Assembly: GCA_030430205.1 (NCBI GenBank)
Contig: JAUIGE010000046.1
Span: forward strand, 1-47,847
Reading direction: 5' to 3'
DNA length: 47,847 bases
Origin: Bacteroidia bacterium
GTDB taxonomy: Bacteria; Bacteroidota; Bacteroidia; J057
The notes beneath the pieces were generated by a model. That model did no database searches, was not told the origin of the DNA, and saw nothing but the letters and a program-made list of their open reading frames with translations. Position numbers and translations under genes: made by a program. Positions 2,811-47,847 of the stretch are shown here, in pieces. Every line of letters begins with the position of its first letter. Within the stretch, counting starts at the first letter, position 1.

Positions 2811-4202
2811 ATGCGAAGAAGAATAGATATAGCGCCTTTGGTTACTTTCCGAATATTATTCGGGGGCTTGATGGCTTTTGGGGCTATTCGCTTTATGGTG
2901 AGTGGTTGGGTAGAAAAGCTCTATGTGGAGCCGCAGTTTTTCTTCAAATTTTATGGATTTGAATGGGTGCAGCCATTGGGGGAGACGGGCATGTATATGC
3001 TTTATGGGCTGATCGCCTGCAGCGCGATCCTGATCATGCTGGGCTTGTTTTACCGCCTGGGGGCGGTTTTGTTTTTTCTCAGCTTTACTTATGCTGAGCT
3101 GATCGATGCCACGCATTACCTCAACCACTATTACCTGGTGGTACTGCTGGGCTTTTTGCTGATTTTTCTGCCCGCCAATCGGGCGCTTTCTCTGGATGTG
3201 CGCCGCAATCCGAAGTTGCGGCAGGAGAGCGTGCCTGCCTGGTGTATTTATATCCTGATCTTCCAGCTCACGCTGGTCTATACCTGCGCAGGTATCGCCA
3301 AGCTCAATCCTGACTGGCTGTTGCGCGCCATGCCGCTGGCGGTTTGGTTGCCGGAGCATACAGATATGCCCCTGCTGGGGCCGCTTTTTGAACTCAGCTG
3401 GATGCCTTTTGCATTCAGTTGGATAGGCGCGATCTACGATCTGACGATCGCTTATTTCCTGATGTGGCGCGTCACGCGCCCTTACGCCTATATCGTCGTG
3501 ATAATCTTTCACACGATGACGCATTTGCTCTTCAACATCGGGCTTTTTCCGCTTATCATGACAATGAGTACCCTGGTATTTTTTTCGGGGGAATGGCATC
3601 AAAAACTCCAAAGCGTTTTCATACGCTTCTTCCAAGCCTTTTTTCATAAAAAAGAAAGCCCTCAATCGCCCTCGAACTCCGAACTCAAACTCAAACTCAA
3701 ACTCAAGGAAAACTCTTTCTTCAAAAGAAGAATTACATCTATCGCCCTTGCGATTTACCTCCTCCTCCAACTCCTCCTCCCTTTCCGCTACCTCCTCTAT
3801 CCGGGCGACCTCTTCTGGACGGAAGAAGGCTATCGTTTCTCCTGGCGGGTGATGCTTTTGGAAAAAGCCGGACAGGCCACATTTTATGTGGAAGATCGGG
3901 CAAGTGGACGCAGGTCCGAAGTGATCAACAGCAACTACCTGACAGCCTTTCAGGAAAAGCAAATGGCGATGCAGCCTGACTTTATCCTGCAATACGCGCA
4001 TTTCCTGGCTCAGGAGTTTGAGGAAAAATACGGCCTGGAAGACCCGCTTGTCCGGGCGGATGTCTTTGTGGCTTTGAATGGAAAGGCGAGCCAGCGGCTG
4101 GTGGATCCCGAGGTGGATTTGACGCGGGTGCGGGATGGCTTTGGGCATAGGGAATGGATAATGAAGAAGTCGACGCAGATTTACGCTGATCATTATGATT
4201 AA
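2811..4202 (+). CDS. HTTM domain membrane protein (vitamin K-dependent carboxylase-like)
   Basis: A 463-aa multi-pass membrane protein. The ATG at 2811 is chosen over the TTG just before it. It begins with a polar stretch and then several hydrophobic helices, with the HTTM-type motif DATHYLNHYYLV near residues 100-112. The soluble C-terminal third includes residues expected after an HTTM core. HTTM proteins resemble the membrane part of gamma-glutamyl carboxylase, but bacterial substrates are unknown; in Bacteroidota they commonly sit beside imelysin genes. Two oddities: residues SNSELKLKLKLKE come from a GAACTC-type microsatellite (3671-3706), and the last dozen or so residues and the stop lie inside a GACGCAG repeat. 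Confidence 0.82.
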   Translation: MRRRIDIAPLVTFRILFGGLMAFGAIRFMVSGWVEKLYVEPQFFFKFYGFEWVQPLGETGMYMLYGLIACSAILIMLGLFYRLGAVLFFLSFTYAELIDATHYLNHYYLVVLLGFLLIFLPANRALSLDVRRNPKLRQESVPAWCIYILIFQLTLVYTCAGIAKLNPDWLLRAMPLAVWLPEHTDMPLLGPLFELSWMPFAFSWIGAIYDLTIAYFLMWRVTRPYAYIVVIIFHTMTHLLFNIGLFPLIMTMSTLVFFSGEWHQKLQSVFIRFFQAFFHKKESPQSPSNSELKLKLKLKENSFFKRRITSIALAIYLLLQLLLPFRYLLYPGDLFWTEEGYRFSWRVMLLEKAGQATFYVEDRASGRRSEVINSNYLTAFQEKQMAMQPDFILQYAHFLAQEFEEKYGLEDPLVRADVFVALNGKASQRLVDPEVDLTRVRDGFGHREWIMKKSTQIYADHYD

Positions 4203-4263
4203 GAATATGTAAGAGAAACAGCGTCAATCATAATCATCATAATCAATCTGCGTCCACTCTTCG
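4164..4263. repeat. foldback repeat of the GACGCAG family (copy 2)
   Basis: The left arm starts GAAGAAGTCGACGCAGATTT and the right arm ends AATCTGCGTCCACTCTTC. The left arm overlaps the 3' end of the HTTM gene and supplies its stop codon. The right arm ends shortly before the TonB receptor start at 4279. Confidence 0.75.
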
Positions 4264-7752: not shown

Positions 7753-7820
7753 AACCATGGAAGAACCCAAACTCACCCGAATCAACAAATACCTCAGCGA
7801 GGTCGGCTACTGCTCCCGGC
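7753..7820 (+). repeat. 68-bp direct repeat, left copy (partner at 9045-9112)
   Basis: Bases 7753-7820 are identical to 9045-9112, which span the last bases before and the first 64 bases of rluF. The two copies flank the ATPase gene at 7907-9025. After the repeat the sequences diverge, apart from a shared TGCC. Confidence 0.92.
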
Positions 7821-7837
7821 CTGCCAAGTCCCCCTAA
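7757..7837 (+). pseudogene. 5' remnant of rluF (26 codons)
   Basis: The frame begins [20 protein letters not shown], identical to the first codons of the intact rluF gene at 9049, then diverges into RPAKSP and stops. It holds only the start of the S4 RNA-binding domain and lacks the catalytic domain, so it cannot be functional. Confidence 0.88.
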
Positions 7838-9044: not shown

Positions 9045-9112
9045 AACCATGGAAGAACCCAAACTCACCCGAATCAACAAATACCTCAGCGAGGTCGGCT
9101 ACTGCTCCCGGC
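9045..9112 (+). repeat. 68-bp direct repeat, right copy (5' end of intact rluF)
   Basis: Identical to 7753-7820. This copy is continuous with the full rluF frame and so carries the functional gene start. Confidence 0.92.
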
Positions 9113-9783
9113 GTGCCGCCGACAAACTCATCGAAGAGGGTCGCGTCACCCTCAACGGCAAAGTGCCCGAGATGGGCACCAAAATAGCTCCCGGTGACGA
9201 AGTCCGGGTGGACGGGAAATTGATTTCCGAGCCCCAGAGTAAACCCGTTTACCTCGCTTTCAACAAGCCCGTGGGCATCGTATGCACCACAGATACCGGC
9301 GTGGAGCGCAACAACATCATTGATTTCATCAACTATCCCAGCCGCATTTTCCCCATCGGGCGGCTGGACAAGCCCAGCGAAGGCCTCATCTTCCTCACCA
9401 ACGATGGCGACATCGTCAACAAAATACTGCGCGCCCGCAACAACCACGAAAAAGAATATATCGTGACCGTCAACCGGCCCATCACCAGGGATTTCATCCA
9501 AAAGATGAGCAAAGGCGTGCCGATCCTCGATACGGTCACCAGGCCTTGCAAAGTGAAACAAATCAACCGATTTGACTTCAACATCATCCTCACCCAGGGC
9601 CTCAACCGCCAGATCCGGCGCATGTGCGAGTACCTGGAGTACGAGGTCGTCAGGCTCAGGCGTGTACGCATCATGAATGTCAAGCTCGACCTGCCGGTAG
9701 GCAAGTGGCGCGACCTGACGGAAGCTGAGCTGAAAGAGATCCACCGCCTGGTGGCGGATTCGGCGAAGACTTTCGAAGGGTAA
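9049..9783 (+). CDS. rluF: 23S rRNA pseudouridine synthase RluF
   Basis: A 244-aa protein with an S4 RNA-binding domain (residues about 5-55) followed by the RsuA/RluB/E/F catalytic domain. The catalytic motif [10 protein letters not shown] is present, with Asp107 as the nucleophile, and the family tail [11 protein letters not shown] is intact. RluF makes pseudouridine in 23S rRNA (position 2604 in E. coli). The start is the ATG shared with the duplicated remnant upstream. Codon use is GC-richer than in the flanking ATPase genes, consistent with a core gene between acquired genes. RluB or RluE cannot be excluded from sequence alone. Confidence 0.88.
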
Positions 9784-12998: not shown

Positions 12999-13006
12999 GG
13001 AGGCCC

Positions 13007-13047
13007 TTCCCCCCCTAAAAATCCCGCTTCCCCGATATCCGGTAAAT
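13007..13047. repeat. 41-bp copy of the 3' end of nosY
   Basis: Matches 13371-13411 (the last codons and stop of nosY) with one T/C difference. On the minus strand it still reads ...YRISGKRDF-stop. It lies 323 bases beyond the end of nosY. Confidence 0.85.
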
Positions 13048-13370
13048 ATCAACATAGGGCAAAGCCCTATAGTAGCCAGTCCCCGAAAAACCGTGAGAGC
13101 CCTGCAAGGGCGAAGTATCAGGTATATCGCCCTTGCAGGGCTACTATGCGAAACCTGTCTGTAACAGGGCCTTGCCCTGTGTTAACGTCTGTCGCCTCTT
13201 CGAGGCTTTGGGAATTGCTTAAAGAAGTGGTTTTCACAAATAGCTGGAGCGGATTTCTGGCCTAGCGGCTGGCTTTGCGCGTAATCCGCTCCATCTATTC
13301 AACTCTTGATTCGCATAAATTCTTAAAACATAAAAAACCATAATAACCCGCGAAAATCTGCGTCCACTCT
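13048..13370. repeat. palindrome-rich insertion between nosY and its duplicated tail
   Basis: This gene-free stretch holds several hairpins: AGGGCAAAGCCCT (13056), a longer pair CCCTGCAAGGGCGA / TCGCCCTTGCAGGG (13101-13141), ACAGGGCCTTGCCCTGT (13164), an element with GGAGCGGATT...AATCCGCTCC arms (13244-13293), and one arm of the GACGCAG family (13322-13372). No protein-coding frame is credible. It looks like a mosaic of non-autonomous repeats. Confidence 0.7.
13244..13293. repeat. GGAGCGGATT hairpin repeat (copy 1)
   Basis: Inverted arms CTGGAGCGGATT and AATCCGCTCCA bracket GGCCT and GCGCG segments. The reverse complement of a closely related 51-base unit is found at 31157-31207. Confidence 0.7.
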
Positions 13371-13378
13371 TTCCCCCC

Positions 13379-29709: not shown

Positions 29710-30708
29710 TTAGTTTTTATCAAAAACGTCCAGCGTGGTATAGCTAATACCCTTGCGCTTCGCAAAATGCGAAGCATTGACGCTCACGCCTTCCTTTACC
29801 AGGGTGGTCTCCTGGGTGATCTCCGAGCCAAAGGCTCGGGTATGTGACTTGTAGACAAGTCCTTTGTGCATCCAGCTGCGTACCTGCGCCATGCGCTTGC
29901 CCTCTTCATTGTACATATTGGCGTCGTAGACTTCACAGACCACGCCCTGGACTCTGTCCGTGCCTCTGCGTTCCACTTTCGTATTCATCCCCTGTGCCAT
30001 GGATTCTGCCATTTCTTCGATTTCCTGCTCACTCATGCCATTGTAGATTTCGCTGGCGGGATTGGCCATGGCTGTACCTGTGCCTTTGGCAGGGTCAATG
30101 CTAAAGAGCGAATCGCCAAGCATCAGGCTGATGGTATAGGAACTTTCATTATTCTTGATGCCCATCATATTGACTGACTGCTCACTGTGTTGGTAGCGAA
30201 CCTGGCGGTTGCCATAGTCATCAAAGTAAAGGGTATCCAGCTGGTGGATTTTCATCATTTTGTTATCGGTTTTTGTAACCGTTACGATCATCCCAGAGGC
30301 TACGCCAAAGGGCCCCTTGCCGGTTACGCCTTTGTCGGCAGAGCCGCCGGAGAAATTGCCTTCAGGCAAGGGCTCCATCTCTTTGCCCATGCCCATGATG
30401 CCGGACAGGTCTATATTGGGCGAGCTGTTCATAGATTCACTCTCTGTTTCCGATCCGGAATTACCCGAGCTGGGCGCATCCGTAGGCCTCGTCTCGCTGG
30501 AATTTTCTTCTTTTTCCTTTTTGATCGCTTCTTCTGCCGCATCTTCAGCCTTGTCCAGCACTTTTTCCATCGCCTGGTCTATCTTTCGATCGGCGCGCTG
30601 CTTGACTTTATTTTCAAATTTTCTCAAAATTTTCTCCTGAGCATTTGCCTGAGGCATGGCAAAGGAAAGACACAATAAAAGGGCGAAAAGGCTTACAATT
30701 GTTTTCAT
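29710..30708 (-). CDS. secreted hypothetical protein, DUF4412-like
   Basis: A 332-aa exported protein with a signal peptide (to about residue 23, QANA). Residues 25-65 form a charged, Ala/Glu/Lys-rich helix, likely coiled coil. A middle Ser-rich linker follows. The C-terminal part has the pattern of DUF4412-type proteins (YFDDYGNRQVRYQ, VCEVYDANMYNEEGKRMAQVRSWMHKGLVYKS). Function unknown. It has a promoter-like element upstream at 30742-30772. Confidence 0.7.
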   Translation of the reverse strand: MKTIVSLFALLLCLSFAMPQANAQEKILRKFENKVKQRADRKIDQAMEKVLDKAEDAAEEAIKKEKEENSSETRPTDAPSSGNSGSETESESMNSSPNIDLSGIMGMGKEMEPLPEGNFSGGSADKGVTGKGPFGVASGMIVTVTKTDNKMMKIHQLDTLYFDDYGNRQVRYQHSEQSVNMMGIKNNESSYTISLMLGDSLFSIDPAKGTGTAMANPASEIYNGMSEQEIEEMAESMAQGMNTKVERRGTDRVQGVVCEVYDANMYNEEGKRMAQVRSWMHKGLVYKSHTRAFGSEITQETTLVKEGVSVNASHFAKRKGISYTTLDVFDKN

Positions 30709-30741: not shown

Positions 30742-30772
30742 CAAAGATAAAAAATGGCTTTGCAAGAGACAA
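30742..30772 (-). promoter_or_regulatory. predicted promoter of the DUF4412-like gene
   Basis: On the minus strand TATCTTTG (30742-30749) matches TAnnTTTG, with TTG (30770-30772) 20 bases upstream. An ACCCCAAATGAG motif (30777-30796 region) sits just upstream of it. Confidence 0.45.
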
Positions 30773-30776
30773 TCAC

Positions 30777-30801
30777 TCATTTGGGGTATTTCTAATCACC
30801 C
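30777..30801 (-). promoter_or_regulatory. CCCCAAATGAG motif upstream of the DUF4412-like gene
   Basis: Minus strand AAATACCCCAAATGAG is followed by TGATT. A near match occurs at about 33604-33628 on the plus strand (AAATACCCCAAATGAG then GGATT). Its position just above the -33 element suggests an activator site. Confidence 0.35.
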
Positions 30802-31339: not shown

Positions 31340-33550
31340 CTAATTTAATACAATCAGTCGCTTCACAAAAAGCTCCTCACCCACTTTCAGTCGGTACACA
31401 TAAAAGCCTTGGGCCAGGTTTCCCACTTCCAGCAGTTGTTCATATTTCCCGGCTTGCCTTTTCTCCTGAATCAAGGTCTGAATCAGCCTGCCGTTCCAAT
31501 CATAGATTGCCAGATGCACCTGCGCGGGCGCTTTCAATTCAAAAGGAATCGTCGTAGACGAGTAGGTGGGATTGGGGTAGCAACTACCCAAATCGGCGAG
31601 CCGGGGCCGCTCCAGCTCCTCATCTATCGAAACATTCGTTTTGACATGTCCATCCGTATGCAGGATGGTGCCAAATTCGCCGACGGCCCAGCCCTTGAGC
31701 GAGTCAAGGAAGTAGCAGCCCCAAAGCGGAAAATTCGTTCCGCTATTTTGTTCTATCCAGGTATCGCCAAAATCCGGCGAGTAATAAATCACACCATTGA
31801 AGCCTACAGCTGTCACGCCTATGCCGCCCGATCCGTTTTTGTTGGAAGCAAAATCAGCACGGGTAAGCGATACATCTGTAAAATCAATTTCTGCTGCCTT
31901 GGGAGGAGAAACGTCAAACCAGCTGTCACCCCTGTCCTGCGTTCGCAGGACCACACCATGGTTGCCCACAGCAACTCCAAAACTGTCGTCTATAAAGCTC
32001 ACGGAAGTGAGCCACTCCTGGGTACCGCTGCTGAGCGGATTCCAGGTATTGCCAAAATCGGGGCTTCTGATGATGGTGCCAAAGCCTCCGACAGCGAAGA
32101 TGGTGCTGTCATTGGGCATTTCCACATCGAGTAGCCAGTTCGTGGTATTGCCATTTTTCTTTACCCATGTCTTGCCGCCATTTTGGGTGCAAAACAGGGC
32201 TCCATCCAGCCCCACGGCAAAGCCCCGGAGTGAATCGTAAAAGGTGATATCAAAAAATTTGAAGGGAGAAGGCACGCGCTGCGGCGTCCAGCTGATACCA
32301 CTATCCACCGAGCAAAAGATGCGGGCCGTATCGAGATAGGTGCCTCCGGCAGCCCATAACTTGTTGCGCTGCTCTGGAAGACGGGTAGTAGTGACACTTT
32401 CAAAAGGATGAAAAGTGGGGGGGAAAGGAGGGGATATCCAGTCTTTTCCGCCATTGGGTGTCCGTAGGACTGCACCAAAACCTCCTACAGCAACACCAAA
32501 ACTGTCATCCAAAAAAGCAACATCTGTAAAGTTGGGAAAAAAACCAATCTGAAAAGGGGTAAAGCTGAGTCCCCCATCATCGGTGCCAAATTGCAGGCCA
32601 TTTCCTCCCCCAAAATAGGCTTTTGAACTATCAGGAAAAGCCACGGTCAGTATCTCTCTGTTGAGGGGAGAAGGGGGAGTAATAAGGGACCAGGTATCAC
32701 CGCAGTCTTTGGTGCGGAGGAGGGTGCCAAGGGGACCGGTGGCAAAGCCATTGTTTCCATCAAAAAACCAAACATCAGTGATGTTCACCGTGACCGGTGA
32801 GATGGGCTTGCTCAATGTTTGCCCTGCCGTTGTGGTGGAAACGATGGTGCCTTCGTCACCAACCAAAATAGCTTTGTCGGGATCTTTTTCCGGCATCCAG
32901 ACAGCATTGATATTGATGCCTGTGAAGGCAGCATTTCCTCCTCCCCAGGGAGAGAAATTCTTTCCACTATCCCCACTAAAAATAATAGGCGGCCCTCCAA
33001 AGGAAGGAAAAGAATCACCTACGATGCTGCCAAAATCAGGAGCGGGAAAGAAAACATCATTGAGGTTGGATTTTAAGCCTGGAAAAGGGGTGTACACCCA
33101 GGTATTGCCTCCATCATTGCTCCTGATGATGGTGCCTGTATCACCGACGCAAATGATTTTTTTCGCATTCAGTATGCTCACGCCCCGCAAGGTATCCTTT
33201 CTGCCACTGTTCAGTTTCTTCCAGCTCTTCCCGCAATCGCGGGTTGACAGAATCGTGCCATCTGTCCCGGTAGCTATGCCCAGGGTGGAATCCCTGAAGT
33301 GAATGGCGTATAGATTCGCCTTTGTGCCGCTTTCCTGCTTTTCCCAGTTTTTGCCACCATCTTTGGTCTTGAGGATAGTTCCGGCATCTCCCACCATAAG
33401 GCCTGTATTTTTATCTAAAAAGAAAGAGTTTCGGAGGGTATTTCCCTGGGGGAAGGGGTTTTGCCAACGCCAATCCTGCTTTTGAGCAGGAAGAGAAAGG
33501 ATCGCCAGCAAAAGACCCAAAAGTAAGATCGGTTGAGTTGATTTTTTCAT
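31340..33550 (-). CDS. secreted protein with YCF48/BNR-type repeats and T9SS sorting domain
   Basis: A 736-aa exported protein (signal peptide to about residue 22). It has many copies of a YCF48/BNR-like unit, such as GLMVGDAGTILKTKDGGKNWEKQ, GIATGTDGTILSTRDCGKSWKKL and GWAVGEFGTILHT, forming one or more beta-propellers. The C-terminal sorting domain (CYPNPTYSSTTIPFEL... ARGFYVYRLKVG-like) targets the T9SS. In photosynthetic organisms Ycf48 aids photosystem II assembly, but in T9SS bacteria the repeat is a generic scaffold, so no function is assigned. The end lies after a hairpin (31275-31310). Confidence 0.88.
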   Translation of the reverse strand: MKKSTQPILLLGLLLAILSLPAQKQDWRWQNPFPQGNTLRNSFFLDKNTGLMVGDAGTILKTKDGGKNWEKQESGTKANLYAIHFRDSTLGIATGTDGTILSTRDCGKSWKKLNSGRKDTLRGVSILNAKKIICVGDTGTIIRSNDGGNTWVYTPFPGLKSNLNDVFFPAPDFGSIVGDSFPSFGGPPIIFSGDSGKNFSPWGGGNAAFTGININAVWMPEKDPDKAILVGDEGTIVSTTTAGQTLSKPISPVTVNITDVWFFDGNNGFATGPLGTLLRTKDCGDTWSLITPPSPLNREILTVAFPDSSKAYFGGGNGLQFGTDDGGLSFTPFQIGFFPNFTDVAFLDDSFGVAVGGFGAVLRTPNGGKDWISPPFPPTFHPFESVTTTRLPEQRNKLWAAGGTYLDTARIFCSVDSGISWTPQRVPSPFKFFDITFYDSLRGFAVGLDGALFCTQNGGKTWVKKNGNTTNWLLDVEMPNDSTIFAVGGFGTIIRSPDFGNTWNPLSSGTQEWLTSVSFIDDSFGVAVGNHGVVLRTQDRGDSWFDVSPPKAAEIDFTDVSLTRADFASNKNGSGGIGVTAVGFNGVIYYSPDFGDTWIEQNSGTNFPLWGCYFLDSLKGWAVGEFGTILHTDGHVKTNVSIDEELERPRLADLGSCYPNPTYSSTTIPFELKAPAQVHLAIYDWNGRLIQTLIQEKRQAGKYEQLLEVGNLAQGFYVYRLKVGEELFVKRLIVLN

Positions 33551-33773
33551 TTTCCAGGCAAGTTATGGGTGTGAAGGACAAAACAAGCTGATAATCAAGA
33601 TACTAAAAATACCCCAAATGAGGGATTTTCATGTGGAAGTGAGAAAATGACACATTTATTAAAAAAATTCAATCTTTAAGTTAAATAAAAATGATTATAA
33701 TGGCAATTAATTAAACTTTTTAGTTGTAAAAATGAATTCATAATACTATATTTACCCTACGTTCTTTACCTGC

Positions 33774-33781
33774 TAACTTTG
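33774..33781 (+). promoter_or_regulatory. predicted promoter of a candidate structured RNA
   Basis: TAACTTTG fits the TAnnTTTG -7 box, with TTTA (33751-33754) 19 bases upstream as a weak -33 element. Predicted start about 33787. Confidence 0.4.
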
Positions 33782-33786
33782 CTTGA

Positions 33787-33993
33787 TTGTTTTATTTGCT
33801 TGAAAGTTTTCGGAAGGAAAACATGTTGATGCGAAACGGATAGCCAAAGGCTTCCGTAAAAGAGTGCAGATTCCCTGCACAAGATAGTCTCTCTACAATA
33901 GTGACATGCTCACGGCACAGCTATTTTTCCGATCCAAATTGGAGCGAAATGCTATAAATGGCTTTTATCCAGGATCGGAAGACTATCTTTTTA
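33787..33993 (+). ncRNA. candidate structured RNA or leader, about 207 nt
   Basis: Hairpins occur in series on the + strand: GTTTTC/GAAAAC (33806-33822), ACGGA-(T)-AGCC/GGCT-TCCGT (33836-33857), GTGCAG/CTGCAC (33864-33880). Then AAGATAGTC (33881-33889) pairs with GACTATCTT (33981-33989) and closes a junction with AATAG/CTATT (33897-33925) and TTCCGATCC/GGATCGGAA (33927-33980, extended by TGGA/TCCA). The 3' strand ends in a T run (terminator-like). No known RNA family is recognised. It may be a free RNA or a regulatory leader for the gene at 34021. A DNA palindrome cannot be excluded. Confidence 0.45.
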
Positions 33994-34020
33994 ATATATT
34001 TACCCCATAACCTAAAAAGC

Positions 34021-34467
34021 ATGTTTCAATTCTTGTTTCCTCGACCCAAAAGAAAGCCCCACAGCTTTCCGGTTTTGGAAGCTAGTGGAATCAAAGACCG
34101 CTACCTTCACCGCACCTCCCGCTTTATGCGGGTAGGGAAGGAGTTGAAGGTATTGAACTCGGATCACAATCCCAGCGTGATCCCCATGACTCCCTGGGAG
34201 GAACATGTTTTTATGCGTGCAGTAGGGGATATGACTGTAAGCCAAATGATAAGGGATATTGAAGCTCAATACAAAGCTTCTCAGAAAGTCCCTGAGAACC
34301 TGGATAAGGTTCTACTTGATCTGCTTGAAGTGCTGATTAAGGACAGAAGAATCATCGAACTCAGTGAGACCCCTGTCACCCTGCCCTATTACCTCAGCAT
34401 GCCCATCCACTTACAGGATGAAAAAAAGGCGCGTGAAATGATGCAGAGAGACAACTTTACGGATTAA
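34021..34467 (+). CDS. hypothetical protein, possibly PqqD-like
   Basis: A 148-aa protein. The ATG at 34021 is chosen because the frame upstream overlaps the structured segment and is AT-rich. The C-terminal half (VGDMTVSQMIRDIEAQY... LDKVLLDLLEVLIKDRRIIEL) resembles the PqqD winged-helix pattern (D.T..EL...L...Y.....V...L..L...GLL) of peptide-chaperone domains in radical SAM systems, but no radical SAM gene is nearby. It precedes a T9SS protein by 87 bases. Function is uncertain. Confidence 0.45.
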   Translation: MFQFLFPRPKRKPHSFPVLEASGIKDRYLHRTSRFMRVGKELKVLNSDHNPSVIPMTPWEEHVFMRAVGDMTVSQMIRDIEAQYKASQKVPENLDKVLLDLLEVLIKDRRIIELSETPVTLPYYLSMPIHLQDEKKAREMMQRDNFTD

Positions 34468-36420: not shown

Positions 36421-36697
36421 TTTGACGCAGATTTCTTAGTAACGAGTCAAAAATAAATGGCTCCAATAATTGATTTTGTATACAAAGAAAAGAGTGGACG
36501 CAGATTTACGCTGATTGTTATGATAAAATTATGTTTGGACCCTAAAGAGGTTACATGTTTATGATTGGGTCATTTCTTAAAACATAAAAAATCATAAAGA
36601 TCTGTGTAAATCAGCGTCAACTCTTCCTCTTCAAATTGGAGCTACTTATTTTTGCTCTTTTACTTATTCATAAACATCATAATTAATCTGGGTCAAA
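36421..36697. repeat. nested foldback repeats (GACGCAG family)
   Basis: Outer arms: CAAAAATAAATGGCTCCAAT (about 36448-36467) and its near reverse complement at about 36635-36655, with TTTGACGCAG at the left edge and CTGGGTCAAA at the right. Inner arms: GAGTGGACGCAGATTTACGC (from 36492) and CATAAAAAATCATAAAGATC to AAATCAGCGTCAACTC (36581-36623). The stretch from the T9SS stop to the DinB start is entirely of this type; no gene is visible. Confidence 0.75.
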
Positions 36698-40231: not shown

Positions 40232-40290
40232 AGGTTAAGGATTAAGGTTTTGTATATGGGATATTGGCGATAAAGGTAAAATTATTTTTG

Positions 40291-40674
40291 AAGAGTGGAC
40301 GCAGATTTACACTGATTTTTATGAGAAGATTATGTTTTAACGACTGCTCGATTTAATCTTAGTACAGGACAAAAAATGAAACGCATGAATGATGAACATC
40401 CCCAAAGTCCCGAAGGGACGCCATATGCTACGATCGGGCAAAGCCCGATCATTCGGGCATTCACACCAGGCCTTAAAGCCCTGGAAGGGCGATATATTAG
40501 GTATGGCGTCCTTTCAGGACTTCTATTGGGGGCATTTACCTTCATGGGGCTTCGCCCCATGCTATATTATAGCGTCCCTTCGGGACGTTGGGGGACTTTC
40601 CTGAAAAATTGTCCTGTACTGCTCGATTGAACATAAAAAATCATAATAATCTGCGAAAACCTGCGTCAAAAATC
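40291..40674. repeat. GACGCAG foldback with a nested MITE-like element
   Basis: The left arm AAGAGTGGACGCAGATTTAC (from 40291) and the right arm (ACATAAAAAATCATAATAAT to CTGCGTCAAA, to 40670) are of the GACGCAG family. Between them the direct repeat ACTGCTCGATT (40343-40353 and 40618-40628) flanks the 260-bp element described next. No gene is visible in 40232-40678. Confidence 0.78.
40361..40620. mobile_element. MITE-like element, copy 1 (260 bp, terminal inverted repeats)
   Basis: It begins AGTACAGGACAA and ends TTGTCCTGTACT, a 12-base perfect terminal inverted repeat. It contains several internal hairpins (GTCCCGAAGGGAC, ATCGGGCAAAGCCCGAT, CCCTGGAAGGG, GTCCTTTCAGGAC, ATGGGGCTTCGCCCCAT, GTCCCTTCGGGAC). 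There is no transposase gene. A copy with high similarity is at 46849-47119. Confidence 0.85.
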
Positions 40675-46824: not shown

Positions 46825-46848
46825 ATGCCTTCTACTATGCATGCGCTT

Positions 46849-47119
46849 AGTACAGGACAAAAAATAAAACCCATGAATGATGAACATCCCCAAAGTCCCG
46901 AAGGGACGCTATATGCTACGATCGGGCAAAGCCCGATCATTCGATTCACACCAGGTCATAAAGCCCTGAAAGGGCGATATATTAGCTATGGCTTCCTAAG
47001 ATATGCCGTCCTTTCAGGACTTCTATTGGGGGCGTTTACCTTCATGGGGCTTCGCCCCATGCTGAATATGGCGTCCCTTCGGGACTTTGGGGGACTTTCC
47101 TGAAAAATTGTCCTGTACT
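46849..47119. mobile_element. MITE-like element, copy 2 (271 bp)
   Basis: Starts AGTACAGGACAA, ends TTGTCCTGTACT, and shares most internal hairpins with the element at 40361-40620. Flanks give no visible target duplication. It replaces the 5' end of the RCC1 gene. Confidence 0.85.
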
Positions 47120-47847
47120 GAAATACATACATCTATTACAAAACTCCTCCTTGTTGCCTTTTTTGCCGCTTCAGTGGGCGTCGTTACTTACTCTGTTAAG
47201 TCAACTTCGCCTTCATCAGCAGCAGCGGTTTCCACAGAACCCCTTGCTGCCCCTCAACCGATAAGGGTATATGGAAAGGGCACCTTCCCGGGTATGACCC
47301 CGCCCCCGCCCCCCGGTAGCATGAATGAACTCTTCGCCTGGGGATATGATGCCTATGGTCAGCTGGGCGATGGGGGGACAAATACCAACCAAAGCAGCCC
47401 GGTGCAGGCGGGTACAGCAAACAACTGGACGGCCATCGCAGTGGGACGAGATCACTCCCTGGCCATCAACAGCAATGGGGAGCTCTTCGCCTGGGGATCT
47501 GATGCCCAAGGTCAGCTGGGCGATGGGGGGACAAATACCGACCAAAGCAGCCCGGTGCAGGTGGGTACAGCAAGCAACTGGACGACCATCGCTGCGGGAG
47601 CTTATTACTCCCTGGCCCTCAACAGCAATGGGGAGCTCTTCGCCTGGGGATGGGATGGCTATGGTCAGCTGGGCGATGGGGGGACAAATACCAACCAAAG
47701 CAGCCCGGTGCGGGTGGGTACAGCAAGCAATTGGACGGCCATCGCAGCGGGAACTTATCACTCCCTGGCCATCAACAGCAATGGGGAGCTCTTCGCCTGG
47801 GGATGGGATAGCAATGGTCAGCTGGGCGATGGGGGGACAAATACCGA
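47108..47847 (+). CDS. RCC1-repeat surface protein, 5' end disrupted and 3' end off window
   Basis: The open frame carries a hydrophobic export-like segment (SITKLLLVAFFAASVGVVTY), a linker rich in Ser, Pro and Gly, then RCC1/ATS1 propeller repeats of 51 aa (NELFAWGYDAYGQLGDGGTN and copies). The frame runs off the edge. There is no ATG upstream because a MITE-like element ends here; candidate starts are TTG at 47087 or 47108. Either the element supplies a new start or the gene is dead. RCC1-type propellers in bacteria are surface or secreted proteins of varied roles. Confidence 0.72.
   Translation, partial: MSCTEIHTSITKLLLVAFFAASVGVVTYSVKSTSPSSAAAVSTEPLAAPQPIRVYGKGTFPGMTPPPPPGSMNELFAWGYDAYGQLGDGGTNTNQSSPVQAGTANNWTAIAVGRDHSLAINSNGELFAWGSDAQGQLGDGGTNTDQSSPVQVGTASNWTTIAAGAYYSLALNSNGELFAWGWDGYGQLGDGGTNTNQSSPVRVGTASNWTAIAAGTYHSLAINSNGELFAWGWDSNGQLGDGGTNT
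47327..47847 (+). repeat. 153-bp tandem coding repeats (RCC1 propeller)
   Basis: The motif GA(A/G)CTCTTCGCCTGGGG recurs at 47327, 47480, 47633 and 47786, exactly 153 bases apart (51 codons). The copies are nearly identical in DNA, suggesting recent duplication or conversion. The array continues past the window. Confidence 0.9.

Follow-up and report, generated by a model that had tools for sequence, protein, structure and literature searches.

A predicted three-way junction RNA upstream of an orphan gene in a Bacteroidia genome

In Flavobacterium psychrophilum, 85 new independent RNAs with a median length of 176 have been reported, and 18 of the 45 non-antisense RNAs are strongly structured (PMC9723704). 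The consensus of the phylum's -7 box is given as TAnnTTTG (PMC7366714, PMC9723704), and the box is placed at -12 to -5 (PMC9723704).

In this work, we have analysed a candidate RNA with several likenesses to these systems, which lies in a window of 47,847 nucleotides, i.e., the whole of contig C57 from a 7.2-Mb Bacteroidia genome. An earlier sequence-only reading had proposed a structured RNA or regulatory leader here. The folding calculations, the promoter-like box and the Rfam searches support a structured, gene-free transcript candidate without Rfam match.

Locus layout and predicted fold

The candidate stands between two divergent genes, 31340-33550 (-) and 34021-34467 (+), with 470 bases between them. 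Since the gene starting at 33550 runs in the opposite direction, the promoter of gene 34021 is expected within 33551-34020. The position of the start codon of gene 34021 is backed by homologue alignment, and about 30 nt separate it from the end of the structure.

The -7-like box of the sequence-only reading is actually a full fit to TAnnTTTG (TAACTTTG, 33774-33781, +), from which a transcript start near 33786 is predicted, but it has no -33 TTG 17–22 nt upstream. As TAnnTTTG occurs 43 times in the window, both strands together, this box alone is little proof. Further upstream, a TTG (33724-33726), a 20-nt spacer and TATATTTA (33747-33754; 7 of 8 letters of TAnnTTTG, the two free letters counted) make up a site (33724-33754, +) that is promoter-like by consensus match, though such a match alone is no proof; the site is flagged as sigma-70-like too, one such site being found against a shuffle mean of 2.0. 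A second -7-like TATATTTA, without TTG upstream, is seen at 33995-34002 (+), within the right copy of a direct repeat that flanks the structure. The two copies (TACTATATTTACCC, 33744-33757, +; TAATATATTTACCC, 33992-34005, +) are identical at 13 of 14 positions and lie 248 nt apart. A repeat pair as good appears in 11 of 400 shuffles of 33560-34030, and the motif occurs twice in the window with up to two mismatches, which 15 of 100 shuffles match.

At the other end, a short, terminator-like T run is located at 33987-33992 (+), with three T outside the stem. The 3' end of the closing stem reads CTT and is followed by TTTAATATATTT; that is, two of the five T are inside the stem, and UUUAAUAUAUUU remains after it. 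The T run of the sequence-only reading is therefore present in a short form, while a strong terminator is not demonstrated, and a terminator at the end of the closing stem looks plausible and weak. A terminator scan of the plus strand did not flag the structure, its loop limit of 3–8 excluding such a junction.

The predicted fold consists of serial hairpins followed by a three-way junction. Hairpin 1 (about 33795-33835, +) is weak and its shape varies with the chosen ends, so among the three hairpins originally described only the second and the third stand firmly. Hairpin 2 (33836-33857, +; ACGGA/TCCGT plus AGCC/GGCT) shows a mean pair probability of 0.97, and hairpin 3 (33864-33880, +; GTGCAG-ATTCC-CTGCAC), which directly abuts the closing stem, shows 1.00. 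The closed junction with two branches and the TGGA/TCCA extension had been described correctly in all its parts and in its place (33881-33989, +). It is formed by the closing stem AAGATAGTCT/AGACTATCTT (33881-33890/33980-33989, +), with 10 of 10 pairs, by branch A (33897-33925, +), with AATAGT/GCTATT at 33897-33902/33920-33925, and by branch B (33928-33979, +), with TCCGATCC/GGATCGGA at 33928-33935/33972-33979, extended by TGGA/TCCA (33940-33943/33968-33971, +). When the ensemble of 33761-34060 is calculated, the mean pair probabilities of the junction helices are 0.91–0.99, except for one inner helix of branch B with 0.78; bar this helix, the junction taken together with hairpins 2 and 3 spans 0.91–1.00.

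We have compared the fold strength with dinucleotide shuffles, the check that the sequence-only reading had suggested, and the fold passes it with z between -4.78 and -5.4. For 33774-34000 (+), the energy is -67.9 kcal/mol (z -4.78) and none of 200 shuffles is as stable; the same holds for 33786-33992 (+) (z -5.2, 0 of 500) and for the junction 33881-33990 (+) (z -5.4, 0 of 300). The minus strand is less stable than the plus strand, with z -3.34 for the whole region (1 of 200 shuffles) and z -3.5 for the junction, as against -5.4. For 33786-33880 alone, the strands are alike (z -3.3 and -3.4). The statement that the stems are unlike chance palindromes holds for the whole fold, which none of the 500 shuffles equals, but not for the closing helix alone, as a perfect junction-closing helix of at least 10 pairs arises in 24 of 500 shuffles. 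Of 1000 shuffles, 6 reach the observed number of exact inverted repeats of 8 bases, 10 do so for 9 bases, and 20 for 10 bases.

Because the site was chosen by eye, tiles from the whole window are the fair control. Among 868 plus-strand tiles of 110 nt, each with 40 shuffles, the core tile 33881-33990 ranks 7 by z. Three of the six tiles with lower z are in repeat elements (13036, 13091, 46916), two overlapping ones are inside a coding frame (20846, 20901), and one has an inverted repeat that is partly intergenic (9736). Overall, the predicted fold is real, significant and unexplained; its kind is known, the instance is new, and any function is putative.

The window contains further repeats. 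Of all 868 tiles, the one that folds most strongly (z -9.5) belongs to the palindromic element at 13000-13230, which has z -6.0 over 241 nt and pieces in common with other repeats of the window. Two copies of another element, 40358-40621 and 46846-47120, are 91–97% alike in ungapped blocks and carry the terminal inverted repeats AGTACAGGACAA/TTGTCCTGTACT. Both matches to Acido-Lenti-1 (RF01687) in the window, 40543-40587 and 47043-47086, are located at an equal internal place in these copies, so this "RNA family" is here a part of a MITE-like element. A repeat family around AAGAGTGGACGCAGATTTACGCTGAT / ATCTGCGTCCACTCTT occurs in direct and inverted orientation between genes (1506-1604, 4165-4261, 13320-13371, 36490-36625, 40290-40674). 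The 73-nt direct repeat 7753-7825 / 9045-9117 is 99% identical; the frame 9049-9783 starts inside the second copy, and the pair may be a partial gene duplication. In addition, a 27-nt inverted pair (30768-30794 / 33604-33630, 89% complementary) around CTCATTTGGGG sits upstream of the genes starting at 30708 (-) and 33550 (-), and is a possible regulator site.

Searches for relatives

At the gathering score, no family of Rfam 15 matches the region, in agreement with the sequence-only reading, which had recognised no known RNA family. With E up to 10, the search of 33550-34060 gives one match of 14.9 bits outside the structure (33604-33632, -), and that of 33740-34020 gives bxd_1, an animal lncRNA, at 33896-33986 with E 1 and 13.4 bits, the cut-off being 75. 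Both are taken as chance, neither having an E below 1.

In its own genome, no second copy of the structure was found: the other matches within 33774-34000 have E 0.22 or worse among the 13 of 23 candidates scored, and with a longer query they have E 0.54 or worse among all 28 candidates. At the sequence level, this single copy speaks against the mobile palindromic repeat that the sequence-only reading had named as the alternative.

We have also searched the DNA of related genomes, in samples (genus, family, order, class, 60 relatives) that overlap, the genus being represented by one other species. The two genomes of the genus yield the sequence itself and short chance or coding matches, without a credible homologue. 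Among 60 relatives including its own genome, 45 have a match at E up to 1, at most 13 candidates being scored per genome; all the non-self matches among these are of 39 query bases or fewer, and none is a credible homologue. The best of them (G019, E 0.001) was rejected, being part of a 231-codon open frame. For 395 class genomes, own included, the best two candidates per genome contain at E up to 0.001 only the sequence itself and one coding match (G333, E 1.1e-4, 81% over 51 query bases), which is part of an open frame at least 669 codons long.

R1 is in effect a single-sequence covariance model, as its alignment consists of the window sequence and the sequence's own copy (L001). It finds only the sequence itself in 22 order genomes (E up to 0.1) and in 395 class genomes (E up to 0.05, stricter filters). 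The best other match in 13 family genomes (G001 C31, E 0.197) is just behind a coding frame with most outer pairs broken, and was assigned to the chance tail; two further R1 matches (L040 and L034, 11.1 bits each) are simple hairpins. A plasmid collection and a phage collection give no match, and two exact patterns have 0 matches in viral contigs. A fast-evolving structure could escape these searches.

The downstream gene and readings of the structure

Gene 34021 (34021-34467, +) encodes an orphan protein of 148 aa. With its own genome counted, 7 of 395 class genomes have relatives of it, as do 4 of 395 genomes of a phylum sample; none was found in viral contigs. The homologue in the congener (G001) has 33% identity. 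For the AlphaFold model (pLDDT 83.0, pTM 0.72), the top fold match is a methyltransferase C-terminal domain (Z 9.5), and further matches are TbiB1 (Z 9.1 over 81 residues), lasso synthetase B1 (Z 8.5), the RRE of PbtF (Z 7.3) and PqqD (Z 5.7). According to these matches to RRE (RiPP recognition element) folds, the modelled product is a PqqD/RRE-like winged helix with a putative function. Foldseek returns nothing at E up to 0.001. The PqqD models of Pfam match 2 of 6 family members and those of NCBIfam 3 of 6, all weakly (best E 0.0031 and 0.0062, respectively), and the protein of the window itself has no profile match.

A 34-aa ORF (33906-34010), which ends 10 nt before the gene, was considered as a possible precursor or leader peptide. 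Its codon score of 0.03 is unsupportive, being near the lower edge of the gene range and intergenic-like (gene pieces: 5th percentile -0.01, median 0.56; intergenic: median -0.03, 95th percentile 0.32). In the frame 33958-34467, an N-terminal extension of gene 34021, the coding signal is absent (-0.09).

Of the eight homologues found, five were examined; the gaps between these genes and the next ORF upstream are 0 (overlap), 20, 21, 142 and 689 nt. The homologue loci contain no R1 match at E up to 5, and the RNA thus does not accompany the gene. The gap of 689 nt belongs to the congener (L032) and has hairpins of its own, with z -3.08 over 484 nt and z -5.9 for one of 15 tiles, and neither similarity nor a common structure with the window structure is found there.

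Tentatively, we prefer to read the structure as a structured 5' leader, specific to the lineage, for gene 34021 with its orphan RRE-fold product, with a weak terminator and the possible release of a ~205-nt RNA, a reading that is quite possible though short of probable. From the sequence, the predicted fold and its place, we infer the course of transcription, termination and regulation as follows. RNA polymerase would start at the TAACTTTG promoter or the upstream TATATTTA promoter, and the nascent chain would fold, the hairpins first and the closed three-way junction after them. At 30 nt before the start codon, the closing stem and the U-rich stretch after it may then stop part of the polymerases, which would lower the expression of gene 34021 and release the ~205-nt RNA. 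In favour of it, the fold is beyond chance and stronger on the plus strand, the strand of gene 34021. The gene needs a promoter, most simply within 33551-34020, and the better promoter boxes are upstream of the structure, which makes the leader the more economical reading, with an independent small RNA close behind. Against the leader stand the weak U run, the missing -33 element of the 33774 box, and the -7-like box at 33995, which could serve the gene alone. In addition, R1 and the DNA searches find no homologue of the structure, and R1 finds none upstream of the homologous genes, which counts against a leader class.

We have also examined whether the leader could contain a switch. With the closing stem forbidden, the energy changes from -67.3 to -52.3 kcal/mol (a cost of 15), and no alternative partner for either arm appears in the equilibrium fold; a switch or built-in antiterminator is thus not evident. 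In the nascent chain ending at 33979 (194 nt), 33786-33793 pairs weakly with 33881-33888 in the 5' arm of the closing stem; this transient pairing is displaced once the 3' arm is made, and is taken as a lead only.

The RNA, some 205 nt long and running from 33786 to about 33991, might instead be an independent, trans-acting intergenic small RNA with its own promoter and terminator, gene 34021 having its promoter at 33995-34002. This is somewhat unlikely. Such RNAs are common in the phylum, and a -7 box, a compact fold, a T run and no clear coding signal coincide on one ~205-nt unit; yet no relative is found even in the one congener compared, the boxes at 33774 and 33995 both lack the -33 TTG, and the terminator is weak.

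That the structure is the relic of a unique or decayed insertion, i.e., a mobile palindromic element with a 14-bp target duplication, seems improbable. The direct repeat TACTATATTTACCC/TAATATATTTACCC would be the duplication, but it may be merely two promoter boxes. Several MITE-like elements are present in the window and some of them fold as strongly, whereas the structure has one copy found in its genome, no match in the phage or plasmid collections and no terminal inverted repeats, no inverted pair joining the ends of 33758-33991. A MITE or dispersed palindromic repeat was rejected on the copy number and the absence of terminal inverted repeats.

Chance hairpins without function are likewise judged improbable. 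They would agree with the conservation not being seen, with the 24 of 500 shuffles that have a junction-closing helix as long, and with the 6 of 868 window tiles at lower z; of these six tiles, however, three are in repeats, two share a coding frame and one has an inverted repeat that is partly intergenic, and none of 500 shuffles folds as well.

If transcribed, the structure would be one more lineage-specific structured RNA, from a little-studied Bacteroidia family. As no relatives are found, the candidate teaches little until its expression or a close relative is found. It adjoins an orphan RRE-like-fold protein without evident peptide partner; that the protein binds the RNA junction and autoregulates via its own leader instead of recognising a peptide, which would make a new RNA class, seems very improbable.

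Comparison with described RNA systems

6S RNA is laid out as a closing stem, an open central bubble and an apical stem. We weighed a 6S identity since neither RF00013 nor RF01685 matches in the candidate's own genome. The candidate is alike in its similar length, its one copy and its closing stem, but instead of the open central bubble, a junction with two branches is predicted, all bases on its 3' side being paired. The models RF00013, RF01685 (6S-Flavo) and RF01693 (Bacteroidales-1) do not match the region at E up to 10, with a sensitivity that is limited: RF00013 is found in 0 of 13 family genomes, and RF01685 in 1 of 13, below its cut-off, and in 0 of 14 controls. On the fold and the models, the 6S identity was set aside. 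Separately, a probable divergent 6S RNA is seen in another genus of the family (L055:1480-1651, -), with 34.2 bits for Bacteroidales-1 and 32.8 bits for 6S-Flavo, both below the cut-off; at E up to 0.1, the other 12 family genomes have no match to RF01685, and all 13 are without one to RF00013.

Type III toxin-antitoxin loci (ToxIN), as presented in PMC8860590, are similar in having a promoter, a short repeat, a terminator-like end and a small ORF downstream. The candidate differs from them in its repeat, a 17-nt unit that is present in only 1.9 copies and overlaps the -7 box, and the fold matches of its downstream protein are RRE and other winged-helix proteins. Such a locus is unsupported; PADLOC assigns 0 families to 7 members of the downstream protein family, an unlisted family being possible.

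With attenuated or riboswitch-type 5' leaders, the candidate shares a structured form on the same strand as the gene, 30 nt before the start codon, and a terminator-like end. It is unlike them in that no competing antiterminator was found in it, it has no known aptamer, and it was not found beside the homologous genes.

The last comparison is with the small RNAs of Bacteroidota. Among the Bacteroides small RNAs in Rfam (e.g., BTnc060), none is above the cut-off on the candidate, which, unlike the described RNAs, is known from its sequence alone and without relatives found. On the other hand, the candidate resembles the Rfp set of Flavobacterium psychrophilum (PMC9723704) and the small RNAs of Bacteroides thetaiotaomicron (PMC7366714) in its length near 200, its TAnnTTTG -7 box, its strong fold and its intrinsic-terminator-like end.
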